Origin: Spirosoma fluviale
Lineage (GTDB): Bacteria > Bacteroidota > Bacteroidia > Cytophagales > Spirosomataceae
Length of the DNA stretch: 64,000 bases
NCBI RefSeq assembly: GCF_900230225.1
Contig: NZ_OCNH01000001.1
Span: 434,001-498,000, forward strand
Reading direction: 5' to 3'
Shown here in pieces: positions 3,001 to 46,710 of this stretch (its first letter is position 1; every line of letters begins with the position of its first letter). Below the pieces are notes generated by a model. The model saw only the letters and a list, made by a program, of their open reading frames with translations. It made no database searches and was not told the DNA's origin. Position numbers and translations under genes: made by a program.

Positions 3001-6000
3001 TTGACCGGGGCAAATGGTGGCGGGCGTCAGGGTGGCCAGCGGTAGGGGGTTAACCGTCACCGTGCCCGTTGCCGTGGCTGAACAACCGGCCCCGCTGGCC
3101 ACCGTCACCGAGTAGGTGGTGGTCGTGGTGGGACTCACCACGAGAGTGCCTGTGGTGTTGGTTAGCCCACCGGTGAAGGTGTAGCTGGTGCCACCCGTGG
3201 CCGTCAGGGTAGCTGCTTGACCGGGGCAAATGGTAGCTGATGTTAGGGTGGCCGTCAGGTTATTGACAAGGGTTACCGTTGCGGAGGTGGTGCTGACACA
3301 GCCGCTGGCGTTAGCTACGGTCACCGAGTAGGTCGTCGTTGTGGCAGGGCTCACCAGCAGAATGCCTGTGGAGTTGACCGTGCCGTTGGAGAAGGTGTAG
3401 CTGGTGCCACCCGTAGCTGTCAGGGTAGCCCCTTGGCCGGGGCAAATGGTAGCGGACGTCAGGGTTGCCACCGGTAAGGGATTGACCATGACGGTGCCCG
3501 TCGCCGTGGCTGAACAACCCGCCCCGCTGGCCACCGTCACGGCGTAGGTGGTGGTCGTGGCAGGGCTCACCACGAGAGTGCCTGTGGTGTTGGTTAGCCC
3601 ACCGGTGAAGGTGTAGCTGGTGCCACCCGTGGCCGTCAGGGTAGCCCCTTGACCGGGGCAAATGGTGGCGGGTGTCAGAGTGGCCACCGGTAAGGGATTG
3701 ACCGTGACGGTGCCCGTCGCCGTGGCTGAGCAACCCGCCCCACTGGCCACCGTCACCGAGTAGGTCGTCGTTGTGGCAGGGCTCACCAGCAGAATGCCCG
3801 AGGTGTTGACCGTGCCGTTGGAGAAGGTGTAGCTGGTGCCCCCCGTGGCCGTTAGGGTAGCCCCTTGGCCGGGGCAGATGGTGGCGGGCGTCAGGGTGGC
3901 CACCGGTAAGGGATTGACCGTGACGGTGCCCGTCGCCGTGGCTGAGCAACCCGCCCCACTGGCCACCGTCACGGCATAGGTGGTAGTCGTGGTGGGACTC
4001 ACCAGCAGAGTGCCTGTGGTGTTGGTTAGCCCACCGGTGAAGGTGTAGCTGGTGCCCCCCGTGGCCGTCAGGGTAGCCCCTTGACCGGGACAAATGGTGG
4101 CGGGCGTCAGGGTGGCCACGGGCAGGGGGTTGACCGTGACGGTGCCCGTCGCCGTGGCTGAACAACCCGCCCCACTGGCCACCGTCACCGAGTAGGTGGT
4201 GGTCGTGATGGGACTCACCACGAGAGTGCCTGTGGTGTTGGTTAGCCCACCGGTGAAGGTGTAGCTGGTGCCACCCGTGGCTGTCAGGGTAGCCCCTTGA
4301 CCGGCGCAAATGGTAGCTGATGTTAGAGTGGCCGTCAGGTTATTGACAAGGGTTACCGTCGCTGAGGTGGTACTGACACAACCGCTGGTGTTAGCCACGG
4401 TCACCGAGTAGGTGGTGGTTGTGGCAGGGCTCACCAGCAGAATGCCCGAGGTGTTGACCGTGCCGTTGGAGAAGGTATATGAGGTGCCCCCCGTGGCCGT
4501 TAGGGTAGCCCCTTGGCCGGGGCAGATGGTGGCGGGCGTCAGGGTGGCCACCGGTAAGGGATTGACCGTGACGGTGCCCGTTGCCGTGGCTGAACAACCC
4601 GCCCCACTGGTCACCGTCACCGAGTAGGTGGTGGTCGTGGCAGGGCTCACCAGCAGAATGCCTGTGGAGTTGACCGTGCCGTTAGAGAAGGTGTAGCTGC
4701 TGCCACCCGTGGCCGTTAGGGTAGCCCCTTGACCGGGGCAAATGGTGGCGGGTGTCAGGGTGGCCGTCAGGTTATTGACAAGGGTTACCGTCGCTGAGGT
4801 AGTACTGACACAACCGCTGGCGTTGGCCACCGTCACGGCGTAGGTCGTCGTTGTGGCAGGGCTCACCAGCAGAATGCCCGAGGAGTTGACCGTACCGTTG
4901 GAGAAGGTGTAGCTGCTGCCACCTGTAGCCGTTAGGGTAGCCCCTTGACGGGGGCAGATGGTGGCGGGCGTCAGAGTGGCCAGCGGTAGGGGGTTAACCG
5001 TCACCGTGCCCGTCGCCGTGGCTGAGCAACCGGCCCCACTGGCCACCGTCACGGCGTAGGTGGTGGTCGTGGCAGGGCTCACCAGCAGAGTGCCTGTGGT
5101 GTTGGTTAGCCCACCGGTGAAGGTGTAGCTGGTGCCCCCCGTGGCCGTCAGGGTAGCCCCTTGGCCGGGGCAGATAGTAGCCGATGTCAGGGTGGCCACG
5201 GGCAGGGGGTTGACCGTGACGGTGCCCGTTGCCGTGGCTGAACAACCCGCCCCGCTGGCCACCGTCACCGAGTAGGTGGTGGTCGTGGTGGGACTCACCA
5301 CGAGAGTGCCTGTGGTGTTGGTTAGCCCACCGGTGAAGGTGTAGCTGCTGCCACCCGTGGCTGTCAGGGTAGCCGCTTGACCGGGGCAAATGGTAGCTGA
5401 TGTCAGGGTGGCCGTCAGGTTATTGACAAGGGTTACCGTCGCTGAGGTGGTACTGACACAGCCGCTGGCGTTGGCCACCGTCACCGAGTAGGTCGTCGTT
5501 GTGGCAGGGCTCACCAGCAGAATGCCCGAGGTGTTGACCGTGCCGTTGGAGAAGGTGTAGCTGCTGCCACCTGTAGCTGTCAGGGTAGCCCCTTGACCGG
5601 CGCAAATGGTGGCGGGTGTCAGAGTGGCCACCGGTAAGGGATTGACCGTGACGGTGCCCGTTGCCGTGGCTGAACAACCCGCCCCGCTGGCCACCGTCAC
5701 CGAGTAGGTGGTGGTCGTGGTGGGACTCACCACGAGTGTGCCTGTGGTGTTGACCGTGCCGTTGGAGAAGGTGTAGCTGGTGCCCCCCGTGGCCGTCAGG
5801 GTAGCCCCTTGACCGGGACAAATGGTGGCGGGTGTCAGAGTGGCCACAGGTAAGGGATTGACCGTGACGGTGCCCGTTGCCGTGGCTGAGCAACCCGCCC
5901 CACTGGCCACCGTCACGGCGTAGGTGGTAGTCGTGGTGGGACTCACCACGAGAGTGCCTGTGGTGTTGGTTAGCCCACCGGTGAAGGTGTAGCTGGTGCC

Positions 6001-34061: not shown

Positions 34062-34745
34062 ATGACATACACAAGCGTCAGAAACACACTATCGGCTTTT
34101 TGTTTTATTTTACTGCTAACCGGCCAGAGCGCAACCGCCCAATCGTCGTCGGGCTGGCGAAAGCTGTTCAACGGCACTGATCTGACGGGCTGGAAACATG
34201 TGGGTAATGGGCGAATGTCCGTCGAAAACGGGATGATTCGCGGGCATGGCGGCATGGGGTTGCTCTACTGGACGGAAGAGAAATTCGGCAACTGTACCAT
34301 TCGGGTAGTGTATAAGATGCAGAAGGCGAACAGCAACTCGGGCGTGTACATACGCATACCCCTTGAGCCGCGCGAAGAGTGGATGCCGGTTCATTACGGG
34401 TACGAAGTTCAGATCGACAACCACCCCGAAACCTCCGACGAAGACGAGTACCACGTAACGGGCACCTTGTACTCCCTCACCAAACCGCTGGCGAAACCCG
34501 GCAAGCCCGGCCCTCAGTGGAACACCATGGAAATCACGCTCGATGGCCCCCGTACCCTCATTTACGTAAACGGCCTCAAGGTGACGGATTACAAGGAAGG
34601 CGCTCCGGTGCCACCGCGCAAATTCGACTTCGAGCCCTTCCGCGGACGCCGACCGGATGCCGGGTACATCGGTCTGCAAAACCACGGCGAGCATGATATC
34701 GTCTATTTTAAAGAGGTATCGGTGAAGCCGCTTGCTGAGAAATAA
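34062..34745 (+). CDS. Secreted DUF1080 protein (3-keto-disaccharide hydrolase domain)
   Basis: The 227-residue protein has a signal peptide (residues 1-27, ending ATAQ) and one DUF1080 jelly-roll domain. Typical segments are WRKLFNGTDLTGWKHVG at the start, NSGVYIRIP and a C-terminal GYIGLQNHGEHDIVYFKEVSV. Members of this family hydrolyse 3-keto-glycosides or bind glycans. It follows the glycerophosphodiesterase in the same direction. Function in this organism is inferred from the family only. Confidence 0.9.
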   Translation: MTYTSVRNTLSAFCFILLLTGQSATAQSSSGWRKLFNGTDLTGWKHVGNGRMSVENGMIRGHGGMGLLYWTEEKFGNCTIRVVYKMQKANSNSGVYIRIPLEPREEWMPVHYGYEVQIDNHPETSDEDEYHVTGTLYSLTKPLAKPGKPGPQWNTMEITLDGPRTLIYVNGLKVTDYKEGAPVPPRKFDFEPFRGRRPDAGYIGLQNHGEHDIVYFKEVSVKPLAEK

Positions 34746-34824
34746 AGGATAAAAAGGCAGGACTCATAGCGTTCTGTTCGCTACCGGCGCTTTCATCTAC
34801 ATCGATGAGTCATCAGTTTTCGTA

Positions 34825-34895
34825 AAATCGCTCGAACATGATACCGTAAATTTAAAATATGACTTTAAATTTACGGTATCATGTTCGAGCGATTT
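34825..34895. promoter_or_regulatory. Perfect 32-bp inverted repeat covering the ATPase start codon
   Basis: Arms 34825-34856 and 34864-34895 are exact reverse complements with a 7-base loop. The right arm contains the ATG (34881) and first codons of the downstream ATPase gene. If transcribed, the hairpin would bury the start codon. The element is AT-rich in its inner half and contains no clear ribosome-binding site. It could control translation or be a protein-binding site. Confidence 0.75.
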
Positions 34896-36056
34896 ATTGC
34901 AACGGAATTTGTAGAGCTTATAGCCGACCGGCCAGTTGTTGCGCTGGTAGGACCGCGTCAAGTTGGGAAAACGACCCTTGTGCGCTCCTTGACCGGTCAA
35001 TTCTCAGCCCAGTCGATTTATCTTGATCTGGAGTCAACCCAGGATCTCAATCGATTGCAGGATGCCGAGCTATACCTTTCTGAACGGCAGGATAAACTTA
35101 TCATTCTGGATGAAATCCAGCGCATGCCACAACTTTTTCCTTTGCTTCGCTCACTTATTGATCGTCACCGGGTAGCTGGCCGGTTTGTCCTTCTGGGCTC
35201 TGCTTCCCCCCAACTTTTACAACAAAGCTCCGAATCACTGGCCGGGCGTATCGCTTACCTGGAGTTGCAGCCTCTAACCTGGCCGGAGGTGCAGGCGCAG
35301 GTTTCCTATCAGAAACATTGGTTGCGGGGTGGCTACCCTGATATGCTGCTGGCAACAACTGATCGACAGGCTAATCGGCGGATGAATGATTTTATTCAAA
35401 CGTACGTGGAGCGTGAACTTCCCACTTTAGGGCTAGGGGCTTCACCAACTCGTATACGAACCTTGTTATCCATGTTGATTAGTGTTCACGCTAATTCGCT
35501 GAATGCTTCTGAATTAAGTCGATCCCTGGGGCTGAGTGTACCTACTGTTCAGAGTTATCTCGACTTTTTGGAAAATGCGTTTCTTATTCGCCGACTGGCC
35601 CCATACTTTATAAATATTGGTAAGCGACTGGTTAAAGCACCCAAGCTTTACCTACGCGATAGTGGTATGTTTCATGCGCTGGCGGCTATTGACACGGAGG
35701 AAGCGTTGACAGGTAGCCTGTATGTAGGCGCATCCTGGGAGGGTTACATTATTCAGCAGGTAATGGCTCATTTAGCCTACAACACTCAGGCTTATTACTA
35801 CCGAACCGCCGATGGTTCTGAATTGGATCTGGTATTGGTGCGGGGTGAGAAGCCTATTATTGGTATTGAAATCAAATATACCAATGCACCAACGCTGAGC
35901 CGGGGCAATTACATTGCCAGTCGAGACTTAGGCAGTATCCCGCTACTGGTCGTTACGCCGTCGGCAGAAGACTTCAAGCTGGATAAGCAGGTACAAGTAT
36001 GCAGTCTGGCAACCGTTTGGCACTATTTAGGTGCTTATGGGGTGTTAAGCCAGTGA
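34881..36056 (+). CDS. AAA ATPase with DUF4143 domain
   Basis: The 391-residue protein combines an AAA_14 ATPase domain with a C-terminal DUF4143 domain, a common and poorly understood pairing. Walker A is GPRQVGKTT (residues 24-32), Walker B is KLIILDEIQ (~71-79), and FVLLGSASPQLL is the sensor strand. A winged-helix-like stretch (ELSRSLGLSVPTVQSYLDFLE, ~200-220) precedes the DUF4143 part with LYLRDSGMFHAL and a nuclease-like RTADGSELDLVL...GIEIKYTNAP segment (Glu/Asp...Glu-x-Lys). That last pattern resembles a PD-(D/E)xK core but catalysis is not shown. It is transcribed alone. The first codons lie in a perfect inverted repeat. Confidence 0.88.
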   Translation: MFERFIATEFVELIADRPVVALVGPRQVGKTTLVRSLTGQFSAQSIYLDLESTQDLNRLQDAELYLSERQDKLIILDEIQRMPQLFPLLRSLIDRHRVAGRFVLLGSASPQLLQQSSESLAGRIAYLELQPLTWPEVQAQVSYQKHWLRGGYPDMLLATTDRQANRRMNDFIQTYVERELPTLGLGASPTRIRTLLSMLISVHANSLNASELSRSLGLSVPTVQSYLDFLENAFLIRRLAPYFINIGKRLVKAPKLYLRDSGMFHALAAIDTEEALTGSLYVGASWEGYIIQQVMAHLAYNTQAYYYRTADGSELDLVLVRGEKPIIGIEIKYTNAPTLSRGNYIASRDLGSIPLLVVTPSAEDFKLDKQVQVCSLATVWHYLGAYGVLSQ

Positions 36057-36157
36057 TAAACGGATTCGAGACCGAAGGTCTTTTATAATAAACAAATCCT
36101 ATTTTGGTATAAACCGATAGACATTGTCAAGTCGACAAATCCTTGCTATCCTAACAG

Positions 36158-36208
36158 CATCATGCTTTGCCTACTAGTGCTTTAAGTACTAGTAGGCAAA
36201 GCATGATG
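36158..36208. repeat. Perfect inverted repeat, 21-base arms
   Basis: Arms 36158-36178 (CATCATGCTTTGCCTACTAGT) and 36188-36208 are exact reverse complements with a 9-base loop. The element shares its last three bases with the next palindrome, so two stem-loops stand back to back. Confidence 0.85.
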
Positions 36209-36270
36209 CGGCATTTTACCCCAACCCCTCCCCTTGAAAACAGGGGAGGGGTTGGGGTAAAATGCCGCAT
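36206..36270. repeat. Perfect inverted repeat, 29-base arms, pyrimidine-rich
   Basis: Arms 36206-36234 and 36242-36270 are exact reverse complements around a 7-base loop; the core is CCCCAACCCCTCCCCT. It could work as a terminator for the AAA/DUF4143 gene. The remaining 36271-36551 is AT-rich, non-coding, and probably holds the promoter of the helicase operon. Confidence 0.85.
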
Positions 36271-36551
36271 AATTTATGATCACTTACTTAAGAGACATTC
36301 GGATGTTAAATGAGACAGTAGAGGTTTTTTAGAGTTGGGGTTTCCAATTGGCGGAGGTCTAAAGTTTATTAGACGTATTTTAAGTTAAAATGACTGATCC
36401 AAGGAAGTACACAAATTAAAACCTTGCCTTACCACTATTTTTAATAACATTGTGACCTTGTTGACTCGGTTTATTATTTGACATAAAAGAAAAATTCATC
36501 ATTACGTGTAAAGAGGCCAAAATTTATATCCACCTAATTTTGAAATTTAAT

Positions 36552-39500
36552 ATGGTTTTACAAGCAAGTTATCTAATTGATGAACTGCTGAAACCGGATG
36601 CCAATCACGAAGGGTTTAAGCGTCTGATTCGGGAGAGGAGCGTTTTTTCAGTTGAAGGTATTCCTGAAAAAGGGTTAAGTTCTCTTGAACCGAATCCCAC
36701 CTTTTCTATTCTACATAACTTAATATCAAGAGGTAATCCAACTCGGGCTAGTCAGTTTTTGACCGGACATATGTTAAGTGAGTTTAATATTTCATTCGAG
36801 CGCCATATAGAAAAAGGTGATGTTCGTTATAAAATAACTGAGGAAAATCTTCCTGAAATTTTTACAGGTAAGGATTCACTACCAACCGGATCTATCTGGC
36901 TTTGGTTAGTTCGAGTAGCTCAAATACAGAAAGTATTATTGTTATTATTTGCCAATCGAATCACTGACGTAGAAAGCGATGGATTATCCATATTGGCTGA
37001 TGAGTTGCTAAAACCTTATCTCCAGCTAGCTATAGAGGATATTGAACAGTGGTATCAGTGCCTCATTCTGTTACAAGAGCGAAATGACGCGTTTCCGAAA
37101 ATCTCAATTGATACATTGCCGCAAGAGGGGAAGACGTATGATATTGCTATATCGCTTGATGAACAAGATAATAGTTATTCTTCGATTAAGATAAATCTTG
37201 GTACTAAGTTGCAGGAGGGCTCACCCTCAATGCGCTTTATATCCGCTTCAAGAATTCAGTACGCTAGTTTAGGTGAGAAGAAAGAGGGTGGATTTATACC
37301 TGCTCCCGTTCGGGAGCAGGCGTTACAATATATACTACAGTCCGTTTTTCGTAAGCAGGATTTTAAACCTGGTCAGTTATCAATTCTGAATCGGGCTTTG
37401 CAGGGGCAGGATGTAGTTGGCCTTCTGCCTACCGGTGGTGGCAAGTCACTTACCTACCAGCTGTCCGCTCTATTACAGCCAGCCGTAACCATTGTAGTTG
37501 ATCCGATTAATTCACTCATGCGTGACCAGTATGAGAAGTTGTTGAGTAACCACATAGATGCGTGCGCGTACATCAATACCTATAATTCGACGGAGGAACG
37601 TGTGAATATTGAGGAGCAACTAAGTGTTGGTAATTTGCTGATAGTATTTGTATCTCCCGAACGGTTCCAAATAAAAAAATTTCGAAATCTCCTTACTCGC
37701 TGTAGGCAAAATAGCGTCTTCTTCGGTTACGCAGTTATTGATGAAGCACACTGCGTATCAGAATGGGGACATGATTTCCGTCAAACGTATTTGCGCTTAG
37801 CTGGTAATCTTAGGAATTTTTGCAGAACTAAGACAGGAGCAGATGCCACGTTTATTGCCTTGACGGCTACTGCTTCATTCGATGTACTGGCCGATATTCA
37901 ACGTGAATTAAATATAAATACAGATGCAATTCAGCAATTGCCATCTGGAGCTATTGATCGTAAAGAGTTAGAATTTAATCTAATAAAGATTGAACCGATA
38001 GGCGTAGCAGAAGCTTGGGTACGAGATAAGATAATTAGCGCCGAGAAACATCCTAAACTTCTTCAACTGTTGAGAGAGGTTCCATTGATGAAATCAATAG
38101 GAAAGTCTGATTTTTATCGACGGGATGTTAATGGTTCGTTTCCTAATGCTGGAATCATTTTCTGTCCTACAAAATCAGACACACGTGGGAATGGTGTCCT
38201 GTCTGTACGAGATGGGTTTCATGGACAAAATGGTCTTGTGAGCGGTACTGTAAGCTTATCATTTCTGGAAACAGTTACGTTCTTTAGCGAAAGTGATGAA
38301 AATCTGGCTAGTAATACTCATGTGGAGACAGAAGCAAAGAGTTCGTTTGGAAACCAAACCAAGTTTATTGAAAATCAAGCGAATTTGATGATTTCTACGA
38401 AGGCATTCGGTATGGGTATTGATAAGAGTAATGTGCGTTTTACGATTCATTATAGCCTACCATCGTCAGTTGAAAGTTTTTACCAGGAAGCAGGGCGGGC
38501 AGGGCGTGATGGAGAAAAGGCAGTCTGTACAATTCTGTACTGTCCAAGTGATGTTGACTCAAATATCGATTTTTTGAAAAATTCTTTCAAGGGAGTAAAA
38601 CGAGAACGTACTATATTTGATGAATTTATAACGGAAATACGGTATGAGAGTAAGTTTTTTATTCAGTATTTAAATTCTATTCTGAAAGAAGAGTTTGGGT
38701 ACTTATTCTCTCTATCAATTTGGAATAAAGGTCAAAATAGACGACTATATGTTAAAACTAAAGGTAATTGGAATAAAGAGAAAAAACTATTTGTTGATAG
38801 TCCAGAGCAGGTGAATTTTGGTTTTTTGAATTTAGATACTCTTACTGAGAATTACTCTGATATTAAGAATGCTACAGAAGAAGAGTGCCGTAAAGTAATG
38901 TACACAGTAAAGCGATTTCTTAGAAAATTTTGCCCCGGCGGGAATTACGGAGATTGGCTGAATCAAATTAAGAGTGAAGGCTTGGAAAGTTCATTAGCTA
39001 AAGGTGGTAGTGGTGTATTAATACTGCCATTCACTAATGATTTGGTGAAAGAAATTTCAAATAAGCTAAAGGAGGCTGGTAATGCAGAAATAAATGAGCG
39101 TATTGTAAGATCTGCATATAATTTTTGCGATTCAGAAGATAAGTTTATTGATGATTTAAAATATGAATACCAACGTGCAACGAAATTTAAGGAAAAGTTG
39201 ATAATCGAAGACTTGGAGAGTTCTTTGAAAGAATCTTTTTGGAAAATCAGATCGTTTTCTGATACACAGCGTGCGGTTTACCGACTTAGTGTTTTAGGCA
39301 TAATTGAAGATTATACAATCGACTATGCCGGGAGAGCTATTATTATTTATTTTAAGCAAAAGCCAGAAACAGACTACCGCGCTAGTTTTGAAGACTATTT
39401 GAAGCGGTATGAAGGTGAGGAAAGGGTTCGTTATTGGCTTAACCAAGTGGATGAACAACAAGGTGAAACTATTTTACGCAGGTATCTTTATACACTGACG

Positions 39501-40160
39501 CGATTTGCTTATGAAACCATAGAAGTTAAACGTCGATCAGCTATTGATTATATGAAAAAGCTGTGCGACCTCTATTTTGAAATTGGTGATGATGGTCAAA
39601 TTAGAGGACAAGCTAAGTTTCGTGAGGATATGGTTAACTATTTCATTTCTAAATATGCTAGCCAAGAGTATTTGCCGAAACATACACAGAATGGTAAACT
39701 GGAAGACTTTCAGGTAGTGAGACAGTATATCAACTATGTTAAGAGGCCTGGAGATGTTAGTGAATTAGGGGTTGGTGGTGAAATTGATAATTTGAAGCAC
39801 ATTATTGGTGGATGTGATCGTATATTAACTGAAAGTCCAGATAGTCGTACTGTACGGTTGATTCGCACTTTTGCTGTATTTGCTATCGAAACGTATAACC
39901 AAAAAATAAATTTAAATAGCATTGAAATGAGTCAGGCCCGGGGGGACTATCTTTCAAGTTTTGGCTACTTCTTGAATAATGCTTCTACATTTAAAGAATG
40001 GTCAGATAATCTGGCCTATTTTAACGATAGCCTGTTGTCTATTAACAACCAACTATCTGATATTCTGGAAGATTTGACACTAGAATTATCCTTGGGCTAT
40101 CACTTAAACTGGCTAACTAAGTTTAATGAATCATTTATTGACACCAAAACGTATGCTTAA
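36552..40160 (+). CDS. Very large RecQ-like DNA helicase with unknown N- and C-terminal domains
   Basis: The 1,202-residue protein (ATG 36552; an in-frame TTG lies four codons earlier) has a RecQ-type SF2 motor in its middle. Motif I is LLPTGGGKSLTYQL (~residue 292), motif II DEAHCVSEWGHDFRQ (~400), motif III ALTATAS, motif V STKAFGMGIDKSNVRF (~615) and motif VI YQEAGRAGRDGE (~645). The first ~270 residues and the last ~550 match nothing I recognise, and the RecQ four-Cys zinc site and HRDC domain are not visible. Ordinary RecQ is about 600-700 residues, so this is not the housekeeping enzyme. By eye the gene is clearly more AT-rich than its neighbours, which suggests transfer. It is followed after five bases by a coiled-coil membrane protein. 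A defence role is inferred from size, context and composition. Confidence 0.88.
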   Translation: MVLQASYLIDELLKPDANHEGFKRLIRERSVFSVEGIPEKGLSSLEPNPTFSILHNLISRGNPTRASQFLTGHMLSEFNISFERHIEKGDVRYKITEENLPEIFTGKDSLPTGSIWLWLVRVAQIQKVLLLLFANRITDVESDGLSILADELLKPYLQLAIEDIEQWYQCLILLQERNDAFPKISIDTLPQEGKTYDIAISLDEQDNSYSSIKINLGTKLQEGSPSMRFISASRIQYASLGEKKEGGFIPAPVREQALQYILQSVFRKQDFKPGQLSILNRALQGQDVVGLLPTGGGKSLTYQLSALLQPAVTIVVDPINSLMRDQYEKLLSNHIDACAYINTYNSTEERVNIEEQLSVGNLLIVFVSPERFQIKKFRNLLTRCRQNSVFFGYAVIDEAHCVSEWGHDFRQTYLRLAGNLRNFCRTKTGADATFIALTATASFDVLADIQRELNINTDAIQQLPSGAIDRKELEFNLIKIEPIGVAEAWVRDKIISAEKHPKLLQLLREVPLMKSIGKSDFYRRDVNGSFPNAGIIFCPTKSDTRGNGVLSVRDGFHGQNGLVSGTVSLSFLETVTFFSESDENLASNTHVETEAKSSFGNQTKFIENQANLMISTKAFGMGIDKSNVRFTIHYSLPSSVESFYQEAGRAGRDGEKAVCTILYCPSDVDSNIDFLKNSFKGVKRERTIFDEFITEIRYESKFFIQYLNSILKEEFGYLFSLSIWNKGQNRRLYVKTKGNWNKEKKLFVDSPEQVNFGFLNLDTLTENYSDIKNATEEECRKVMYTVKRFLRKFCPGGNYGDWLNQIKSEGLESSLAKGGSGVLILPFTNDLVKEISNKLKEAGNAEINERIVRSAYNFCDSEDKFIDDLKYEYQRATKFKEKLIIEDLESSLKESFWKIRSFSDTQRAVYRLSVLGIIEDYTIDYAGRAIIIYFKQKPETDYRASFEDYLKRYEGEERVRYWLNQVDEQQGETILRRYLYTLTRFAYETIEVKRRSAIDYMKKLCDLYFEIGDDGQIRGQAKFREDMVNYFISKYASQEYLPKHTQNGKLEDFQVVRQYINYVKRPGDVSELGVGGEIDNLKHIIGGCDRILTESPDSRTVRLIRTFAVFAIETYNQKINLNSIEMSQARGDYLSSFGYFLNNASTFKEWSDNLAYFNDSLLSINNQLSDILEDLTLELSLGYHLNWLTKFNESFIDTKTYA

Positions 40161-40165
40161 TTATC

Positions 40166-41197
40166 ATGAGAAAAGAATTAAATGAAGTTCTAGTTGATTT
40201 TCAGAATAAGCTAAGTGAATTAAAAACAGCATCTGACTTGATTGGTCAAGCCAAAGATGCGGCTATCTCATCATCGACATTAGCACAGCAAATGCAGATA
40301 GGATACAATCAACTTTTTAGCGATATTCAAGTTGAAGTTCATTCAATTCGAAAAATAAAGGATGTAGCAGCAGAAAATCTTGTAGAAGCAGGTATTAGGG
40401 TAGAAGAGATTGCTAACCGAAATTTTTCTAAAATTGACCAAGACCTGCGGGATGGTTTTGCTCTCATAACAGATAAAATTGCTCATTTAATAGATGAAGA
40501 GGTTCGTGCTTTAAACGATTTTAATCAAAAAGTAGATAACGTTCTTCAAAAAATTCAAGATTCTATTGCTATAAATATTGGCGGCATTAAAAATGAATTA
40601 GCTGATGGTCGTAAACAATATAGTGCCGACACTAGGTCGATGGAAAGTATTCTTTTAGGAAATTTACAAGCTAGGTTAGACGATTTAGGACAAAAAAATA
40701 ACGATTCCCTGAATTCTATAAATTCGGTTATTGAAAAAAATATCCTGAATATAAAAGAAGAGTTATCATTAGGGTTGAGGATACTGAACAATAAGTTGGA
40801 GGCATTGAGTACCATAGTACAGCAAATTCAAGATAATAATCGCCAGTTTTATGCTGATTTGGAACGGCTTTTGCTTATCACGCTAAACGATAACAAAGAA
40901 GAAATAAAGAATATTGTTAATGAAGTTCGGGAGAACCAAACGGAATTTGAACTAAGATTGCGTATCAAATTAGACGAAAATAAGGCAGAAGTAAAACAGC
41001 AGGTCGAGTATGGAAATGATCAAATTCGGAATGTTATTTATCAACAGGCTGACTTAGCCAAACAAGAACTTCAATCCTACTTTGATCAACAGTTTAATTT
41101 AAATACTAAGCATCAACAGAAAATAGAAGTAACTCTTTGGATAACAGGAGGTCTATTGGGTGCTTTGGTCAGTGCCGTATTGATAAAACTATGGTAA
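40166..41197 (+). CDS. Long coiled-coil protein with C-terminal membrane anchor
   Basis: The 343-residue protein is almost entirely predicted helix, rich in Glu, Lys, Gln, Asn and Leu/Ile in heptad-like order (for example LNDFNQKVDNVLQKIQDSI). It ends with one hydrophobic segment, LWITGGLLGALVSAVLI (~residues 322-339), and a short basic tail. No signal peptide is present, so it is probably tail-anchored with the coiled coil in the cytoplasm. It starts five bases after the helicase stop and shares its AT-rich composition, so the two form an operon. I recognise no family. It could tether the helicase or sense membrane events. Confidence 0.8.
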   Translation: MRKELNEVLVDFQNKLSELKTASDLIGQAKDAAISSSTLAQQMQIGYNQLFSDIQVEVHSIRKIKDVAAENLVEAGIRVEEIANRNFSKIDQDLRDGFALITDKIAHLIDEEVRALNDFNQKVDNVLQKIQDSIAINIGGIKNELADGRKQYSADTRSMESILLGNLQARLDDLGQKNNDSLNSINSVIEKNILNIKEELSLGLRILNNKLEALSTIVQQIQDNNRQFYADLERLLLITLNDNKEEIKNIVNEVRENQTEFELRLRIKLDENKAEVKQQVEYGNDQIRNVIYQQADLAKQELQSYFDQQFNLNTKHQQKIEVTLWITGGLLGALVSAVLIKLW

Positions 41198-41208
41198 GAA
41201 AATAGCTA

Positions 41209-41544
41209 CTAAAACAGCTCCAACATACCATACTCGTCTGAATCGTTCAGTTTTTGGAGATCATCAAGGTGCTTTTCTAACGTGTCAAAGACACCAGCCG
41301 ATGATTGATTACCCATCCTCAATAGAACAACCTTAGGCGGAAAGCCATACGTGTTGGCTAGATTGTAATAATCATCATCGTTCGTTACAATGATTCGGTT
41401 GTTAACACGTGCCCACTGCCAGATGGCAATGTCTTCGGCAGGAATCGGCAGACCTGTTCGGGTGACGTGTAAACAATCGGGGATGATAGCCGTTAATTTC
41501 CTGACTAAACGATACGACAAATTAGCGTCAAGAAGGATTTTCAT
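41209..41544 (-). CDS. DUF5615 PIN-like toxin candidate (copy 1)
   Basis: The 111-residue protein begins MKILLDANLSYRLVRKL, with the first acidic residue of the PIN-like fold in LLDANLS, and continues with ARVNNRIIVTNDDDYY, the second acidic cluster. DUF5615 proteins are small PIN-related domains, usually encoded next to DUF433 proteins and thought to be RNase toxins. Here the start codon overlaps the DUF433 stop by one base, giving the usual antitoxin-first order. It is convergent with the helicase operon, only 11 bases away. Confidence 0.85.
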   Translation of the reverse strand: MKILLDANLSYRLVRKLTAIIPDCLHVTRTGLPIPAEDIAIWQWARVNNRIIVTNDDDYYNLANTYGFPPKVVLLRMGNQSSAGVFDTLEKHLDDLQKLNDSDEYGMLELF

Positions 41545-41771
41545 CAGGCAGGAATCAAACGGGTACGACGCTCACTGTCAGCGGCAAAGGCTAGCGCTGC
41601 CCGGATGTGTTCGAGCGTGAGTTCAGGAAAATCGTCCAGAATCTCGTCATTTGTCATGCCCGAAGCGAGCCAATTTAGAATATCCTGCACGGCAATACGA
41701 GTGCCTTTGATACAGGGCTTACCGAAACGGATGCCGGGATTCAAACTGATATACTCCTGATAATTACCCAT
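41544..41771 (-). CDS. DUF433 antitoxin candidate (copy 1)
   Basis: The 75-residue protein (Met at 41771, MGNYQEYISLNPG; an ATG five codons upstream is less likely) shows the family signature FGKPCIKGTRIAVQDILNWL, then a C-terminal helix-turn-helix-like ELTLEHIRAALAFAA. DUF433 proteins are short winged-helix proteins paired with DUF5615 or other PIN toxins. It probably represses its own operon. Confidence 0.85.
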   Translation of the reverse strand: MGNYQEYISLNPGIRFGKPCIKGTRIAVQDILNWLASGMTNDEILDDFPELTLEHIRAALAFAADSERRTRLIPA

Positions 41772-41955
41772 ACACAAAGATAGCAAAACTTATTACCTCT
41801 ACAGGCGTAGGACAACCTCCCGGTTCGTCAGGCTAGTTTGTATCGAACTAAATCTATTTTAGCTCCATCTTTGTTATCCTTGCAGCAGAATACATACCAC
41901 AGCGTTATCGACTGAGTGAGTCACTCGTTCGTCTTTCGCTCTTTCACGAATAAAC

Positions 41956-44040
41956 ATGAAACTCCTTAAAGTAGCCGCTGGTGTCCTGAACCAAATCCCG
42001 CTTGCCTGGGAACACAACAAGCAAAACATCATCAATGCCATCGAAGAAGCCCAGCGGCAGAATGTCAGCCTGCTGTGCCTGCCCGAATTCTGTATCTCGG
42101 GTTATGGCTGCGAAGACGCTTTTTTTGCCCAGAACACCATCGATCAGTCCATTGCCTCATTACTGGAAATTGTTGAGCATACGAACGACATTGCCGTGGC
42201 CGTTGGCCTGCCCCTGCGCCATAATAATCGCACGTTCGACACCGCCTGTCTGATTGCCAATAAGCGAATTCTGGGTTTTACGGCCAAACAGTACATGGCC
42301 AATAACGGCGTCCATTACGAAACACGCTGGTTTCAGCCCTGGCCTCCGTACGTCCGCGACGAAATCAAAATCGGGGAGTTCATGTACCCCTTTGGTGATG
42401 TGGTCTATGACCTGTCGGGCGTTCGGATCGGGTTCGAAATTTGCGAAGATGCCTGGGTGGCGAGCCGTCCCGGACGCATTCTCTACGAGCGGGGTATCGA
42501 CATTATCCTGAATCCCACGGCCAGCCACTTTGCCTTCCTGAAATCGCAGGTGCGGGAGCGGTTCGTGGTCGATGCGTCGCGGTCGTTTGGGGTGAGTTAC
42601 GTCTATTCCAACATGCTTGGTAACGAAGCGGGCCGGATCATCTACGACGGCGACGCTATGGTAGCTTCCAACGGCGAACTGCTGGTGTCGGGGCCACGGT
42701 TGAGTTACGAAGATTACGTGATCGTCCCGGCCGTCATCGACGTGGAAGCCACCCGCCTGAACCAGACCCAAAACCGGGCAAATATTGCCCTGGCGTATCC
42801 AAATTTACGCGTGACTGATCGGTTCGACTGGCCCGATATTGCGCCCGTTATTCAGAAAGCACAACTGGAAGGCTGGGAGCGGGGTGGTTACCTGAAAGAA
42901 GAAGAATTTGCGCGGGCCGTTGCCCTCGGCCTGTTCGATTACCTGCGGAAGAGCCGCTCGCAGGGGTACGTGCTGTCGCTGAGTGGCGGGGCGGACTCGT
43001 CGGCTATTGCGGCTCTTGTTTTCCTGATGATCCGGATGGCGGTGGAGAACATCGGCATGGCCGGCGTCAAGAAAAAACTCAGCTACATCAAGGCTATCCA
43101 GGACTGTAAAACGCCCGAAGAGGTAATTGGTAAACTACTGACGGTAATGTACCAGGGTACCGAAAACTCCTCCGACGATACCTTCAACTCGGCGAAAGAA
43201 CTGGCCGATGATATTGGTGCGAAATTTCTGAATATCAATATCAACGGACTGGTTGAAACCTACACCGGCCTGATCGAAGAACAACTGGGTCGTAAACTTT
43301 CGTGGGATACGGATGATTTAGCCCTGCAAAATATTCAGGCGCGGGTGCGGGCTCCGAGTATCTGGATGCTGGCTAACATTAATAACGCCCTGCTGCTCAC
43401 CACCTCGAACCGCTCCGAAGCGGCCGTTGGCTATGCCACCATGGACGGCGACACGGCCGGTAGTATTTCGCCCATAACCGGCATCGACAAGCATTTTCTG
43501 CGTAGCTGGTTGCGCTGGCTCGAAACCGTGGGGCTGAACGTCAAAAACGCCCCCGAACCCACCGACCGCACTAGTCTGGCTATGGAACCAACTGACCCTG
43601 ATGAACTCATCAAGGTAAAAGGACTAAACGCCGTGAACAATCTGCAACCCACCGCCGAGCTCCGGCCGCAGGACAAAAAGCAGACCGACGAAGACGACCT
43701 CATGCCCTACGATGTGCTGAACTCCATCGAAGAATCGGCCATCCGCGATAAGCAGCCGCCGGTTGAGGTACTGAAAATGATGGAAGTCCGGTATGCGGGT
43801 ACGCATGATCGCGAAAAGCTCTTGCTCTGGGTCGAGCGGTTCTTCAAGCTCTGGAGCCGCAACCAGTGGAAGCGCGAACGCTATGCGCCCTCGTTTCATT
43901 TGGACGACCACAACCTCGATCCCCGCTCGTGGTGCCGCTTCCCGATCCTGTCGGGTGGTTTTGAAAAAGAGCTGGCCGAGATGCGCGACTGGGCCAACGA
44001 ACAGAAACCCAACGGGCGAAAGGGTAAAATTGGGTTTTAG
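41956..44040 (+). CDS. nadE: Glutamine-dependent NAD+ synthetase
   Basis: The 694-residue enzyme makes NAD from deamido-NAD with glutamine as the nitrogen donor. The N-terminal nitrilase-like glutaminase domain has Glu44 in LCLPEFCISGYG, a Lys in GFTAKQYM and the nucleophile Cys near residue 162 in GFEICEDAW. The C-terminal synthetase domain has the P-loop SLSGGADSSAI (~341-351), TTSNRSEAAVGY and GSISPITGIDK. Length matches the long eukaryote/Bacteroidota form. The last 90 bases (43951-44040) are repeated at 45988-46092, after the Septu-like genes, so this 3' end was involved in an insertion. The gene remains intact. Confidence 0.96.
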   Translation: MKLLKVAAGVLNQIPLAWEHNKQNIINAIEEAQRQNVSLLCLPEFCISGYGCEDAFFAQNTIDQSIASLLEIVEHTNDIAVAVGLPLRHNNRTFDTACLIANKRILGFTAKQYMANNGVHYETRWFQPWPPYVRDEIKIGEFMYPFGDVVYDLSGVRIGFEICEDAWVASRPGRILYERGIDIILNPTASHFAFLKSQVRERFVVDASRSFGVSYVYSNMLGNEAGRIIYDGDAMVASNGELLVSGPRLSYEDYVIVPAVIDVEATRLNQTQNRANIALAYPNLRVTDRFDWPDIAPVIQKAQLEGWERGGYLKEEEFARAVALGLFDYLRKSRSQGYVLSLSGGADSSAIAALVFLMIRMAVENIGMAGVKKKLSYIKAIQDCKTPEEVIGKLLTVMYQGTENSSDDTFNSAKELADDIGAKFLNININGLVETYTGLIEEQLGRKLSWDTDDLALQNIQARVRAPSIWMLANINNALLLTTSNRSEAAVGYATMDGDTAGSISPITGIDKHFLRSWLRWLETVGLNVKNAPEPTDRTSLAMEPTDPDELIKVKGLNAVNNLQPTAELRPQDKKQTDEDDLMPYDVLNSIEESAIRDKQPPVEVLKMMEVRYAGTHDREKLLLWVERFFKLWSRNQWKRERYAPSFHLDDHNLDPRSWCRFPILSGGFEKELAEMRDWANEQKPNGRKGKIGF
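43951..44040 (+). repeat. 3' end of nadE, first copy of a direct repeat
   Basis: The segment starts TCGGGTGGTTTTGAAAAAGA and ends at the nadE stop codon. It is nearly identical to 45988-46092; the second copy carries 15 extra bases and one substitution (AACGAACAG versus AACGAGCAG). Confidence 0.9.
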
Positions 44041-44089
44041 CCAAGCCCGTGTAACTTTGTGAAAGCCAGTTTGTGAAAGGCCGCTGCTT

Positions 44090-45367
44090 ATGATAACGCC
44101 CGAAGAATTTCCATATATCAAATCCTTGTACGTGAACGACTGTTACGCGTACAAGGATTTCAACATTGAGCTACACGACTACAAACCGTTTAGCCATTTG
44201 ATTTTGACGGGCAAGAATGGTTCGGGGAAGAGTACGATTTTGCGGGCGATACATCGGCAGTTTTTTCCCGAGGTAAATAAAGGGAACAAATTAGAATTTT
44301 CTGCTTCACTTCTGACCGTAGAACCTACAGGTGAAAGTATTAATGTAAAGCAGACAAGATTTCCAGCCACCCCAATACGACAGGTTGTTATTTCATTTAT
44401 TAAACAACACAACATTGCCAACCACGGGCAGGAAGCCAGATTAATGAGCCCTCGAGAGATTTTTGATTTGTACAATCAAAAATTATATTCTTATTTCTCG
44501 GCAAAACGTACTAGTGAGGTTGCCAAGGTTGAATCTCCCTCAAAAGAGACTGAGTTTACTGAAAGGTTGAATTCATGGGACTCAACTGATTTTTTCATCC
44601 GTAAATTCAAACAATATCTAGTCAATCAAAAAGTCGAACAAGCATTTAGTCAAATTGAGCACCAGATTGCACAAATTGAGCAAATTGAAAGATTTTTCAA
44701 GAAATTGGAAGAGGCTTTTCGTGAGATGTTTGACGATAAGCTAATGCAAATAGAGTTTGTGAGAAGCAATTACGAATTCTATCTCAAACTCTCAGATGGA
44801 CGTAGACTTACTTTTGACACGCTTTCTGAGGGTTTTTCAGCCCTATTAAGTATCCTCATGGACTTGTTCATGCGGGTAGACTTAATACGTAAGCAAGTCA
44901 ATGATTATAGCTACAATCCATGTGGCATTGTATTAATTGACGAGCCGGAAACGCATCTTCATTTACAATTACAGGAGCAGGTGTTGCCCTTATTAATAAG
45001 CTTGTTTCCAAATATTCAATTCATTGCGGCTACACACTCACCGGCTGTGATTGCCAGTATTAAAAACGCTACAATTTTTGATTTAACGACCAAAGAGAGC
45101 CGCATTAGTGAGGAGACGGCGGGGCGCAGTTATTCGGATTTGATGATCTCGCATTTTGGACTGAATAATGAGTATTCTAAAACAGCAGACACAATTATTA
45201 ATCAGGTCAATAGCGTCTTGAACACGCTTGGTGATAAGCCTGGCGAGATGAAGACGGCTCTGCAAAAGATTTATAATGAAAATAGCGATTACCTGTCGCC
45301 AACGTTAAAAGTAGAATTAGAGCTACTAATTGCCCAACAGGAAGCCCAACACACCGCCCACCAATGA
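44090..45367 (+). CDS. AAA ATPase of a Septu-like defence pair (PtuA-like)
   Basis: The 425-residue protein is an ABC/RecF-type ATPase. Walker A is GKNGSGKST (residues 41-49), a signature-like LSEGFSALLSIL precedes Walker B VLIDEPETHLH (~281-291), and the H-loop is AATHSPAV (~314). The middle (~130-230) is helical and probably coiled-coil. It overlaps the following HNH-type gene by four bases. An ATPase of this kind directly coupled to an HNH nuclease is the arrangement of Septu (PtuAB); retron Ec78-type systems share the pair, but no reverse transcriptase is seen here. The gene begins 49 bases after nadE and is more AT-rich than nadE. Confidence 0.82.
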   Translation: MITPEEFPYIKSLYVNDCYAYKDFNIELHDYKPFSHLILTGKNGSGKSTILRAIHRQFFPEVNKGNKLEFSASLLTVEPTGESINVKQTRFPATPIRQVVISFIKQHNIANHGQEARLMSPREIFDLYNQKLYSYFSAKRTSEVAKVESPSKETEFTERLNSWDSTDFFIRKFKQYLVNQKVEQAFSQIEHQIAQIEQIERFFKKLEEAFREMFDDKLMQIEFVRSNYEFYLKLSDGRRLTFDTLSEGFSALLSILMDLFMRVDLIRKQVNDYSYNPCGIVLIDEPETHLHLQLQEQVLPLLISLFPNIQFIAATHSPAVIASIKNATIFDLTTKESRISEETAGRSYSDLMISHFGLNNEYSKTADTIINQVNSVLNTLGDKPGEMKTALQKIYNENSDYLSPTLKVELELLIAQQEAQHTAHQ

Positions 45368-45987
45368 TTAATGTCGTTCGGGATCAACCCGCTCCGCCTT
45401 CATTAGCCAGTCAGAAGTCATATCGAAGTCCAGACGTAATTGAAGCGTTACACCAGGTCTTTAAAGGTAAATGTTACTTAACCGAAAAAGTGTTCGATAG
45501 TCCCAATGAAATGGAAGTTGATCATTTCATTACACAGACTGAACGTCCTGATCTGGTGTTTGACTGGCAGAATCTGTATGCAATAGATCAGAAAGCAAAC
45601 AAACAAAGGCCCAAGCGAACGCCAATAGGTGGTTATCTTGATCCATGTAACGCAGGCGATGATGTTGAGCAGGAAATAACCTACATCGTTGAATACGGAG
45701 GTAACTCACTATTCAAGGCCAGAGATTCTACGAATCAGAAAGCGGTTAACACCGCTGCCTTGCTGAATCATGCCCACAAAGACCTGAAGCCAGCTATCAA
45801 TAATAAGCATCATGAAGTTGTTCTCGCTGTAGCTGAGTGGCATACTGCAAAAACGCAAGGTGATATACAGACGGAGTTTGAGAAAGAACTCTTACTCAGG
45901 AAGTTATTGTCAAGAGATAGCCATTTTACGATGTTGATGCGAGCGATCTGGGCTGTTCAGTCATTACCTAATGATTTCTTTGACTGA
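45364..45987 (+). CDS. HNH-type nuclease of a Septu-like pair (PtuB-like)
   Basis: The 207-residue protein has an HNH core in residues ~37-80: KCYLTEKVF, then MEVDHFITQ (Asp53-His54), DWQNLYAI (Asn70) and KANKQRP. The strand position where many HNH proteins have Cys-x-x-Cys reads CYLT, so the second Cys is missing. The C-terminal half is helical. In Septu, PtuB cuts nucleic acid under control of the PtuA ATPase. The start overlaps the ATPase gene (ATGA). The stop codon abuts the repeated nadE 3' end directly. Confidence 0.78.
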   Translation: MINVVRDQPAPPSLASQKSYRSPDVIEALHQVFKGKCYLTEKVFDSPNEMEVDHFITQTERPDLVFDWQNLYAIDQKANKQRPKRTPIGGYLDPCNAGDDVEQEITYIVEYGGNSLFKARDSTNQKAVNTAALLNHAHKDLKPAINNKHHEVVLAVAEWHTAKTQGDIQTEFEKELLLRKLLSRDSHFTMLMRAIWAVQSLPNDFFD

Positions 45988-46092
45988 TCGGGTGGTTTTG
46001 AAAAAGAGCTGGCCGAGATGCGCGACTGGGCCGGGCCACGTCAGGCCAACGAGCAGAAACCCAACGGGCGAAAGGGTAAAATTGGGTTTTAG
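45988..46092 (+). pseudogene. Duplicated 3' end of nadE
   Basis: This 105-base fragment repeats 43951-44040 in frame up to the stop codon, with 15 additional bases (GGGCCACGTCAGGCC, five codons GPRQA) inserted after the codons for RDWA. It has no start and cannot make NadE. It is probably the remnant of the nadE end that was displaced, or brought in, when the Septu-like pair arrived. Confidence 0.85.
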
Positions 46093-46120: not shown

Positions 46121-46360
46121 ATGATTGATGTAAAATGGCAGGATTATATTACTGCTGATCCGGCTATTATGGTCGGAAAACCTATCATTAAAGGTACCCG
46201 CATTACGGTTGAATTGATCGTTGAGAAATTGGGATATGGTGAAACTGTAGAGGAAATCCTCAATGATTACCCTCATTTAACGCATGAGCAGATTTATGCC
46301 TGTTTGCGTTTCGCTGCACATACTGTCCATAGTAGGCGCAGCCGCAAATTAGTAGCATGA
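46121..46360 (+). CDS. DUF433 antitoxin candidate (copy 2)
   Basis: The 79-residue protein has the family core MVGKPIIKGTRITVELIVEKL followed by HLTHEQIYACLRFAAH. It overlaps the following DUF5615 gene by four bases. It is a diverged relative of the copy at 41544-41771, on the opposite strand. Likely role: DNA-binding antitoxin and autoregulator. Confidence 0.85.
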   Translation: MIDVKWQDYITADPAIMVGKPIIKGTRITVELIVEKLGYGETVEEILNDYPHLTHEQIYACLRFAAHTVHSRRSRKLVA

Positions 46361-46710
46361 TCAATCTACTGGCTGATGAAAATGTAGAAGCGAGGGTTGT
46401 TCGTCTACTACGTTCAGAAGGATATACCGTTACGTCAATTCAGGAGACACAAAGTGGTGTGGCTGATGAAACAGTGCTGGAAACAGCAGTTTCATCAGCC
46501 ACTGTTTTGTTGACGGGTGATAGTGATTTCGGGAAATTACATTTTCAGAAAGGGCATATTCATTCGGGTATTTTGTTCTATAGATTGCCGCGAACCACTA
46601 CTGAAGAAAAAGGCAATATTATCCTCAAGACAGTACGTGAGTACGGTGATAAGCTGATTGATTCGTTTACCGTTGTCACGTTGAAAAAAGTGCGTATCCG
46701 AAAATTATAA
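46357..46710 (+). CDS. DUF5615 PIN-like toxin candidate (copy 2)
   Basis: The 117-residue protein starts MINLLADENVEARVVRLL, with PIN-type acidic residues Asp7-Glu8, and has ATVLLTGDSDFGKL with the second acidic pair. Sequence similarity to copy 1 is low outside these motifs, so the two pairs are not a recent duplication. It ends two bases before the DMT transporter start. Confidence 0.85.
   Translation: MINLLADENVEARVVRLLRSEGYTVTSIQETQSGVADETVLETAVSSATVLLTGDSDFGKLHFQKGHIHSGILFYRLPRTTTEEKGNIILKTVREYGDKLIDSFTVVTLKKVRIRKL

Follow-up and report, generated by a model that had tools for sequence, protein, structure and literature searches.

A conserved gene pair of a giant RecQ-like helicase and a tail-anchored coiled-coil protein in Spirosoma fluviale

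The window, a stretch of 64,000 nucleotides from Spirosoma fluviale (contig NZ_OCNH01000001.1, positions 434,001 to 498,000), contains a gene for a giant RecQ-like helicase, which is followed after only 5 bases by a gene for a coiled-coil protein (Table 1). The ATG assigned as the start of the helicase gene matches the start of a relative (L002). A sequence-only reading of the window had described the downstream product as a coiled coil of 343 residues with one terminal membrane segment, and open frames and hydropathy are in agreement with this description. The best 19-residue hydrophobic stretch of the partner has a mean Kyte-Doolittle value of 2.1 and ends 3 residues before the C-terminus, and the protein contains neither proline nor cysteine.

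Table 1. Features of the gene pair and of the inserted block (positions in the window)
Feature	Position	Strand	Remarks
Inserted block, about 7.1 kb	34762..41849		two sister genomes lack it at this site
AAA ATPase with DUF4143	34881..36056	+	PADLOC candidate PDC-S01; within the inserted block
Two near-perfect inverted repeats	36157..36273		between ATPase gene and helicase
Giant RecQ-like helicase	36552..40160	+	1202 aa (1206 aa from TTG at 36540); open-frame, profile and model evidence
RGNPT motif, N-terminal region	36729..36743	+	present in many relatives
RecQ-type motor (RecA1-RecA2)	37314..38609	+	motifs intact, profile matches, model
Probable RecQ-like winged helix	39135..39359	+	conserved TQRAVYRLSVLGIIEDYTIDY; from model and alignment
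Family-specific C-terminal helical region	39360..40157	+	
Tail-anchored coiled-coil partner	40166..41197	+	343 aa; open frame, hydropathy
Predicted membrane segment of partner	41129..41185	+	residues 322-340; Kyte-Doolittle, no dedicated predictor
DUF5615 and DUF433 pair, toxin-antitoxin-like	41209..41786	-	within the inserted block

Both genes are AT-rich against their neighbours, as had been claimed. Their GC contents are 0.379 (helicase) and 0.336 (partner), whereas 11 of 14 other measured genes have values of 0.49-0.56; the remaining three, the genes for DUF5615, PtuA, and PtuB, have values of 0.40-0.44. The pair lies within a block that is missing from two sister genomes. In one of them (G035), the flanks 34150-34761 and 41850-45177 are only 73 bases apart, and in the other (G026), positions 34744 and 41956 are separated by 183 bases. 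The block-free site in both genomes is a clean empty site, which supports mobility. A full-length match was absent from 35 other genomes of the genus. The toxin-antitoxin and Septu-like neighbours proposed from the sequence were found as the DUF5615/DUF433 pair and PtuA/PtuB downstream; outside the block, all genes other than Septu and one DUF5615 gene are metabolic or envelope genes.

The RecQ-type motor with long flanks, predicted for a protein of about 1,200 residues, was recovered, with about 260 residues before and about 520 residues after it. The motifs GGGKS, DEAHC, LTATA, TKAFGMGID, and QEAGR are intact, and Pfam profiles matched with E-values of 1.2e-20 (DEAD) and 1.5e-10 (Helicase_C). 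The cut-off for membership in the RecQ superfamily was exceeded (NCBIfam recQ_fam, 274.4 versus 219.8 bits). The structures of RecQ, RECQL1, RECQL5, BLM, and WRN matched the helicase model with Z-scores of 22-27, and the RECQL4 structure 5lst was aligned to residues 226-1028 of the model over 487 residues. The flanks had been called unknown, and for part of the C-terminal side this does not hold, because the model and a conserved motif suggest a RecQ-like winged helix. This assignment is based on model and alignment; the segment was not searched alone. For the C-terminal region, a profile search against PDB sequences yielded a best E-value of only 0.13.

Motor and probable winged helix are shared with bacterial RecQ, but the long region after the motor and the near-constant partner set the family apart. 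The scores required for housekeeping RecQ equivalogs were not reached (289.9 versus 640.2 bits and 230.8 versus 1015 bits), and an HRDC domain was not among the five Pfam matches up to E 0.1. A four-cysteine zinc domain was not evident upon inspection of the cysteines after the motor (659, 664, 779, 794, 859, 1005, and 1088). Among the best 15 of 26 matches in phage records only motor-level matches were found, and none of the 26 covered 80% of the query.

Among 88 distinct loci of the family, 73 have a tail-anchored open reading frame immediately downstream of the helicase gene, compared with 1 of 90 control genes under the same rule, which rules out chance pairing. When longer overlaps were allowed, the number rose to 75. 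In 70 of the 73 paired loci, the two genes are within 20 nt or overlap, and in 43 they overlap. The pair was found in several phyla, and thus, the expectation that it co-occurs in distant genomes was met. The 88 loci are those that have the family-specific C-terminal region; they were picked by helicase similarity (best 80 of 585). From 107 loci examined, 14 were dropped because they scored below 25 bits and 5 more as near-duplicates. The 14 comprise ordinary RecQ genes, two loci cut by contig ends, and also L152, L175, and L199. L152 has a split helicase frame with a C-terminal piece of 130.7 bits and a partner. L175 is also split, and its C-terminal piece (70.7 bits) is followed by a 163-residue open reading frame without a membrane segment. 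A tail-anchored partner is present in L199 (Thermus). A tail-anchored partner is lacking in 13 of the 88 loci. Seven of these encode a coiled coil, judged as such by eye, without a membrane segment (L160, L186, L191, L194, L197, L244, and L245). Of the remaining six, L140, L145, L172, and L239 are cut off or masked, L185 is an ordinary RecQ-like protein of 679 residues, and for L149 none was found within 250 nt.

The partners differ about six-fold in length (104-622 aa). An alignment of the first 70 residues of 85 sequences revealed heptad-like conserved positions in the first 40 residues or so. Autocorrelation of hydrophobicity in the partners showed peaks at lags 7 and 11, and in 67 of 75 membrane segments no more than one residue is charged or N/Q/H. 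A heptad-like N-terminus, a variable rod, and a plain hydrophobic segment form the pattern expected of a tether. Sequence identity between partners is only 13-21%, and a search with the window partner alone gave no match in 58 relatives, including G055, although G055 has a partner. The partners have diverged too far for common descent to be proven by sequence; that they are related is inferred from their position, their architecture, and the pattern at the N-terminus. A model of the helicase C-terminus fused to the partner contained no interface, and the pLDDT of the partner was about 43-73. With this model, Foldseek found no match at 1e-3, and the best VIA-align Z-score of 7.9 does not rise above the noise level given for helical models.

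The N-terminal part of the helicase is exchangeable within the family. Modules found in relatives are a PD-(D/E)XK nuclease, a methyltransferase-like domain, a HAD-phosphoribosyltransferase with DprA, and a kinase. The nuclease domain was recognised in at least 63 of 88 loci, and a DUF559 match reached 7.5e-10. This number is a lower bound because the 25 loci without a nuclease match include short or unlocated N-termini (L139, L143, L145, L181, L185, and L234). In most long relatives the nuclease comes after the RGNPT motif; in the alignment it is missing from the window protein, which belongs to a clade of seven rows without the nuclease. A degenerate nuclease in the window N-terminus was rejected, as there is no match to a nuclease profile and the flanks of that domain adjoin in the alignment. 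A third gene common to the clade was also rejected, as the upstream genes of L128, L129, L132, L137, L226, and L228 differ when compared by eye; an exception is an Eco57I-type gene some kilobases upstream of both L128 and L129. In one clade member (L228), the N-terminus matches RNase_T weakly (E 0.07), so that not every member can safely be taken to lack an effector. In the relatives from E. coli and Klebsiella, a DprA gene lies upstream, and the N-terminus of the helicase contains a HAD module that matches phosphoribosyltransferase weakly; this match is clearer in L172 (9.4e-7), which has a DprA-like end upstream.

Because the 88 loci were chosen by helicase similarity, prevalence was drawn from genome samples. 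Members of the family were counted in 22-23 of the 395 genomes sampled from the phylum, the window's own genome among them, and in one of 398 for the phylum of the Alcanivorax relative, this one being the centre itself. The pair is present in 7 of 5,426 E. coli genomes, and two of these copies are broken by insertion sequences. For 11 loci the neighbours have names, and in 8 of these loci restriction or other defence genes are near; the proposed defence-island setting applies to most, but not all, of these relatives. Near L025 and L247, no defence genes beyond DprA were found, and near L137 only a PLD-domain gene and no restriction or defence gene. Elsewhere, the neighbours include genes for DarT, a macro-domain protein, and a McrC-type protein (L226), Eco57I-type genes (L128 and L129), HsdM (L132), a type I R subunit, helicase-related and DUF1998 genes, and a CARF gene. 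The locus of E. coli ET846 is chromosomal; it is flanked by a type I restriction system on one side and by Mza on the other, and an integrase gene lies at a distance of about 12 kb. A neighbour scan (85 versus 7) counts model families and not proteins, so that the enrichment is unquantified.

The pair has no name in PADLOC 2023, NCBIfam June 2026, or Pfam, and as had been supposed, no named system matches: the helicase is generic RecQ or below curated cut-offs, and the partner has no assigned family in these three libraries. A literature search, with subscription papers and most preprints outside its scope, found no description of a RecQ protein paired with a tail-anchored coiled coil. The best PADLOC matches of the helicase are DpdF models, and a RecQ-like motor is shared with Dpd, but DpdF matches the motor only (168.4 bits versus a cut-off of 550), and other Dpd genes were not among the matches listed for the partner and the products of seven neighbouring genes, the PADLOC lists for PtuA and PtuB being limited to 25 entries. 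Zorya (ZorABCD) combines a helicase with a membrane component that has a long coiled coil. The ZorA3 model was weakly matched by 4 of 6 partners tested, in the case of the window partner at profile positions 299-507 of 692 (E 0.0016), which is coiled coil only. ZorA is a MotA/ExbB/TolQ-type protein according to PADLOC, whereas the window partner has a single C-terminal hydrophobic segment and does not meet the criterion for that membrane domain. The Hachiman helicase is of another type than the RecQ-type window protein. No HamA-type gene was among the matches listed for nine proteins (Pfam, PADLOC, NCBIfam). In Hachiman (HamAB), a helicase watches over the DNA and is coupled to nuclease activity, which resembles the family in outline, but the nuclease is on a separate protein and the accessible part of the source describes no membrane component (PMC12278908). 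PsyrTA, RqlHI, and DprA-PRTase also have a RecQ-type motor, and as far as the available text goes, RqlHI (PMC4670107) and DprA-PRTase (PMC9122126) use phosphoribosyltransferase or DprA-type parts, which the enterobacterial relatives have as an adjacent DprA and a weak phosphoribosyltransferase module. However, the phosphoribosyltransferase of RqlHI is at the helicase C-terminus (PMC4670107), while that of the family, where present, is N-terminal, and the accessible parts of PMC4670107 and PMC9122126 do not mention a coiled-coil partner with a tail anchor.

A defence role of the pair is likely, yet it is inferred, as there is no phage assay. We hypothesize that the pair is a mobile anti-invader module in which a membrane-tethered helicase acts on invading DNA and the coiled coil is the tether; tethering and DNA as the target are inferred, and we give this reading about an even chance at best. 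The giant protein would be an active RecQ-type DNA translocase, as far as can be judged from intact motifs, and its additional N- and C-terminal parts may recognise foreign DNA or load onto it. The conserved heptad-like helix of the partner could hold the helicase or oligomerise, the rod of variable length could be a spacer, and the C-terminal segment would fix the complex to the inner membrane, at which DNA of phages or plasmids enters or is replicated. In most relatives, the nuclease within the helicase would cut the unwound DNA. In the window clade it is absent, probably lost, and unwinding must then either stall the replication of the invader or supply other cellular nucleases with DNA; this mode of action is likewise inferred.

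The action of the window clade without a nuclease would also be explained by abortive infection, with the helicase as a sensor and the partner as an effector that damages the membrane once phage DNA is engaged. The partner is the single near-constant component beside the helicase, and all seven nuclease-less rows have kept the membrane segment. However, the plain hydrophobic segments, the range of lengths, and the 7 of 88 loci without a membrane segment fit a tether better than a pore, and abortive infection appears unlikely, albeit not negligible. The DprA and phosphoribosyltransferase parts of the enterobacterial relatives and L172 could instead point to a toxin system like PsyrTA/RqlHI, in which a genotoxic helicase is restrained by its partner until infection. 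Against this, no phosphoribosyltransferase domain was found on the window helicase (Pfam up to E 0.1) and no DprA-like gene in the window (tblastn with the L025 DprA, 1e-4), and the same DprA matched only 5 of the loci examined, 4 of them adjoining the helicase; we consider such a system improbable. Several copies of the family are on plasmids, and in E. coli ET300 the plasmid carries phage tail and replication genes, as would be expected if the pair served not defence but repair or replication as a membrane-anchored helicase that maintains plasmid or phage DNA. Points against this are the chromosomal copy in E. coli ET846, the DarT, macro-domain, and McrC-type neighbours of L226, and the swapping of N-terminal modules, which is usual in immune proteins, and this reading is given little credence.

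Taken together, the membrane-tethered helicase remains our working hypothesis. For the family as a whole, it is conceivable, though we would not quite call it an even bet, that it represents a widespread and so far undescribed class of RecQ immune systems that are tethered to the membrane and survey DNA there, at the site of entry of invading DNA, with exchangeable N-terminal effectors, or none, on a constant core of RecQ-type motor, family C-terminus, and tail-anchored coiled-coil rod. Research on immunity built around helicases (Hachiman, Zorya, Druantia, Dpd) is moving fast, and membrane-anchored RecQ machines are unnamed among the systems in the libraries and literature searched. If the hypothesis is true, the family would combine parts of the PsyrTA, DprA-PRTase, and nuclease types on a single scaffold, and its natural variants without nuclease or without membrane segment would be useful for dissecting the role of each part. 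With two genes and 4.6 kb the system is small, and its transfer to a laboratory strain would be easy. It would also give access to the question of the cellular site at which the DNA of invaders is sensed.

The adjacent RecQ-type helicase and partner genes described in the sequence-only reading were both found as intact reading frames, five bases apart, and the motor motifs are complete. An alternative TTG start at 36540 would make the helicase four residues longer. The protein matched the DEAD and Helicase_C domains and passed the generic RecQ family cut-off, and it fell well short of the curated thresholds set for housekeeping RecQ and DpdF. The atypical composition claimed for the pair was also borne out, with GC3 values of 0.32 (helicase) and 0.27 (partner) versus 0.47-0.69 in 12 of 14 other genes measured; the Septu genes, which belong to these 14, had values of 0.40-0.43.

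Features of the inserted block and its surroundings, in window positions
Feature	Position	Strand	Remarks
Inserted block	about 34762-41849		from alignment with the sister genomes G035 and G026
DUF4143 AAA ATPase	34881-36056		PADLOC candidate PDC-S01; in the inserted block, ~0.5 kb upstream of the helicase
Two near-perfect inverted repeats (hairpins)	36157-36273		arms of 26 and 32 nt, 96-97%
RecQ-type helicase	36552-40160	+	1,202 residues; adjoins the partner gene
Partner protein	40166-41197	+	343 residues
Septu PtuA/PtuB pair	44041-45986		beside the NAD synthase gene

Comparison with two sister genomes (G035 and G026) revealed that the distance from the upstream hydrolase gene to the downstream NAD synthase gene is about 190 bases in these genomes, compared with 7.2 kb in the window. 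The inserted block contains the DUF4143 ATPase, the two hairpins, the pair, and DUF5615/DUF433 genes, and the genes upstream of it have metabolic or envelope functions. The two inverted repeats meet at a common boundary shortly before the helicase; they may represent the end of a mobile element or a structured RNA. The Septu genes, which are missing in G026 and at least partly present in G035, are a second insertion, separate from the helicase block. Beyond Septu, the final stretch of the NAD synthase gene seems to occur again (about 43940-44040 and 45988-46092; 75% over 105 bases via G035, overlapping by about 90 bases in G026), in the manner of an integrating element's direct repeats. DUF5615 genes lie at 41209-41544 and, past Septu in sequence common to G026, at 46357-46710. 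At the other end of the window, the minus strand of 1-7890 carries an open frame of more than 2,600 residues, mostly 58-65% GC versus 50% for the window, perhaps a large repetitive surface protein.

Full-length relatives of the helicase came from one genome within the order, from Salinibacter, Haliscomenobacter and Rhodothermus plasmids, from two viral-collection contigs and from the GTDB genome scan, with longer ones on Klebsiella plasmids; none of the 35 other genomes of the genus had a full-length match. In a sample of 395 genomes from the phylum, a profile of the family's C-terminal region matched 22 at 1e-10 and a broader profile 23; both counts include the genome of the window, and nearly all matching genomes have a single place. 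The examined loci, chosen by similarity to the helicase (from the genome scan, the best 80 of 585), numbered 107, of which 93 reached at least 25 bits and 88 were distinct. The check suggested for the pair, whether it recurs in distant genomes, came out positive: an open reading frame ending in a membrane segment directly follows the helicase in 73 of the 88 distinct loci, whereas under the same rule such a frame followed only 1 of 90 control genes (at least 300 residues, from control stretches of 18 genomes holding the family). Two further loci (L154 and L231) gained a tail-anchored frame when longer overlaps were allowed, raising the count to 75. In seven loci the downstream coiled coil lacks a membrane segment, another four are truncated or masked, L185 encodes an ordinary RecQ-like protein, and at L149 no partner was found within 250 nt downstream. 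According to record titles, members with tail-anchored partners occur in phyla that include Bacteroidota, Bacillota, Actinomycetota, Pseudomonadota, Acidobacteriota and Cloacimonadota; many of these records are metagenome assemblies, and single phylum assignments may be wrong. Among 5,426 complete E. coli genomes, 7 carry the family locus, which insertion sequences interrupt in two of them; the RefSeq names there are "RecQ family ATP-dependent DNA helicase" for the helicase and "hypothetical protein" for the partner.

In the family alignment, an N-terminal RGxPT region is followed by the motor and the C-terminal region. An AlphaFold2 model of residues 11-1206, based on a 40-row alignment, had a mean pLDDT of 85.0 and a pTM of 0.86. 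The whole model was used for structure comparison, and the N-terminal region and the C-terminal helices were not separate queries. The top-ranked structure was RECQL5 5lb3 (Z 26.8, rmsd 7.1, 394 aligned in a second-look alignment), closely followed by RecQ 1oyw (Z 25.7, rmsd 3.1, 389 aligned). For RECQL4 5lst the aligned length was 487 residues (Z 22.4, rmsd 3.3); this alignment of the model, together with a conserved YRLSxLGxIxDYTID motif, suggests a winged helix.

The N-terminal part is variable. A DUF559-like PD-(D/E)XK domain (best Pfam E-value 7.5e-10) was recognised there in 63 of the 88 distinct loci and is absent from the window helicase. In a quick maximum likelihood tree of 84 members, the latter falls into a fully supported group (SH-aLRT) of seven rows, none of which has the nuclease. 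Because this group is nested among nuclease-bearing rows, the tree suggests a loss of the nuclease, with the reservation that the root is arbitrary. A methyltransferase-like module was assigned to 19 of the 84 rows by our own motif; its Pfam matches stayed below the curated cut-off (best 8.1e-5). Further modules are HAD plus phosphoribosyltransferase, zinc ribbons and one protein kinase; at L191:24-4811 a kinase domain and a topoisomerase-type zinc ribbon are fused N-terminally to the helicase. Enterobacterial relatives have DprA beside the helicase; at L172, the final part of a DprA-like gene lies upstream of the helicase.

The window partner contains no proline and no cysteine, and the single membrane segment given in the sequence-only reading corresponds to one hydrophobic segment at its C-terminus. 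For this protein, NCBIfam gave no match and no curated Pfam cut-off was passed; the few weak matches in Pfam and PADLOC were coiled-coil-like in appearance. As a sole query it found nothing in 58 relatives, including G055, though a partner is present in that genome, and five other partners are only 13-21% identical to it. The case for kinship of the partners rests less on sequence than on where the genes lie and how the proteins are built. A heptad-like hydrophobic pattern occupies the first 40 or so residues (85 sequences, some near copies; conservation was measured over the first 70 residues only), and hydrophobicity is periodic at 7 and 11 residues. Partner lengths range from 104 to 622 residues (median 218), and the longest (L139:12719-14587, 622 aa) retains the C-terminal hydrophobic segment. 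In several of the partners that lack a membrane segment (L186, L191, L194, L197, L244 (L126) and L245 (L127)), the C-terminus is a short basic tail containing F, G and R/K. At most one charged or N/Q/H residue was found in 67 of 75 membrane segments. With a conserved head, a rod whose length varies freely and an unremarkable membrane tail, the sequences fit a tether, in which the partner, as inferred from sequence, would be a spacer between helicase and membrane. Membrane tethering is the best single reading of the mechanism, held only tentatively. When the L137 helicase C-terminus and its partner were modelled as one chain, the partner had low confidence and no usable interface resulted.

Defence-gene surroundings had been noted for the pair and were found elsewhere as well, with restriction or defence genes near 8 of the 11 loci with named neighbours (L025, L246 and L247 are near copies of a single locus). 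In the window's own clade, DarT, macro-domain and McrC-type genes lie within a few kilobases at L226, Eco57I-type genes near L128 and L129, and an HsdM gene near L132; at L137 only a PLD-domain gene was present among the neighbours. Annotated plasmids carry, within about 8 kb, a type I restriction R subunit, helicase-related and DUF1998 genes, and a CARF gene; the Klebsiella plasmid neighbours are mostly transposases. In E. coli ET846, the DprA, helicase and partner genes are flanked by a type I restriction operon and a Mza system, and an integrase gene lies about 12 kb away. The ET300 plasmid that bears the locus also has phage tail and replication genes, and DprA is the only defence gene named nearby. 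At 1e-15, 130 flanking proteins (of 156) matched 85 PADLOC model families, compared with 7 for 128 control proteins (of 182); BrxC, ZacA, ZacB, CARF-HEPN, reverse transcriptases and type IIG are among the matches listed for the flanks. As a single protein can match many models, these counts show the direction only. On a viral-collection contig, the pair is preceded by a gene judged by eye to be reverse-transcriptase-like (L027:3050-4369; 439 aa).

Among the helicases listed for DefenseFinder systems, we take only DpdF and PsyrT to be RecQ-like. Both are included in the accessible part of the list in PMC12278908. As far as the available text of the sources goes, RqlHI (PMC4670107) and DprA-PRTase (PMC9122126) have parts in common with the enterobacterial relatives, but not with the window copy, and the pair is not described in the accessible portions of PMC13092281, PMC10853773, PMC12458937 and PMC12839542. 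One validated candidate in the accessible text of PMC9519451 joins a domain for DNA binding or cleavage to a coiled coil that is putatively anchored in the membrane, a precedent for membrane-bound DNA defence. In summary, the association of helicase and partner is real and under-described. In the absence of an assay, a defence role is, in our estimate, likely, and the pair would represent a helicase-based defence with parts overlapping PsyrTA-like systems.
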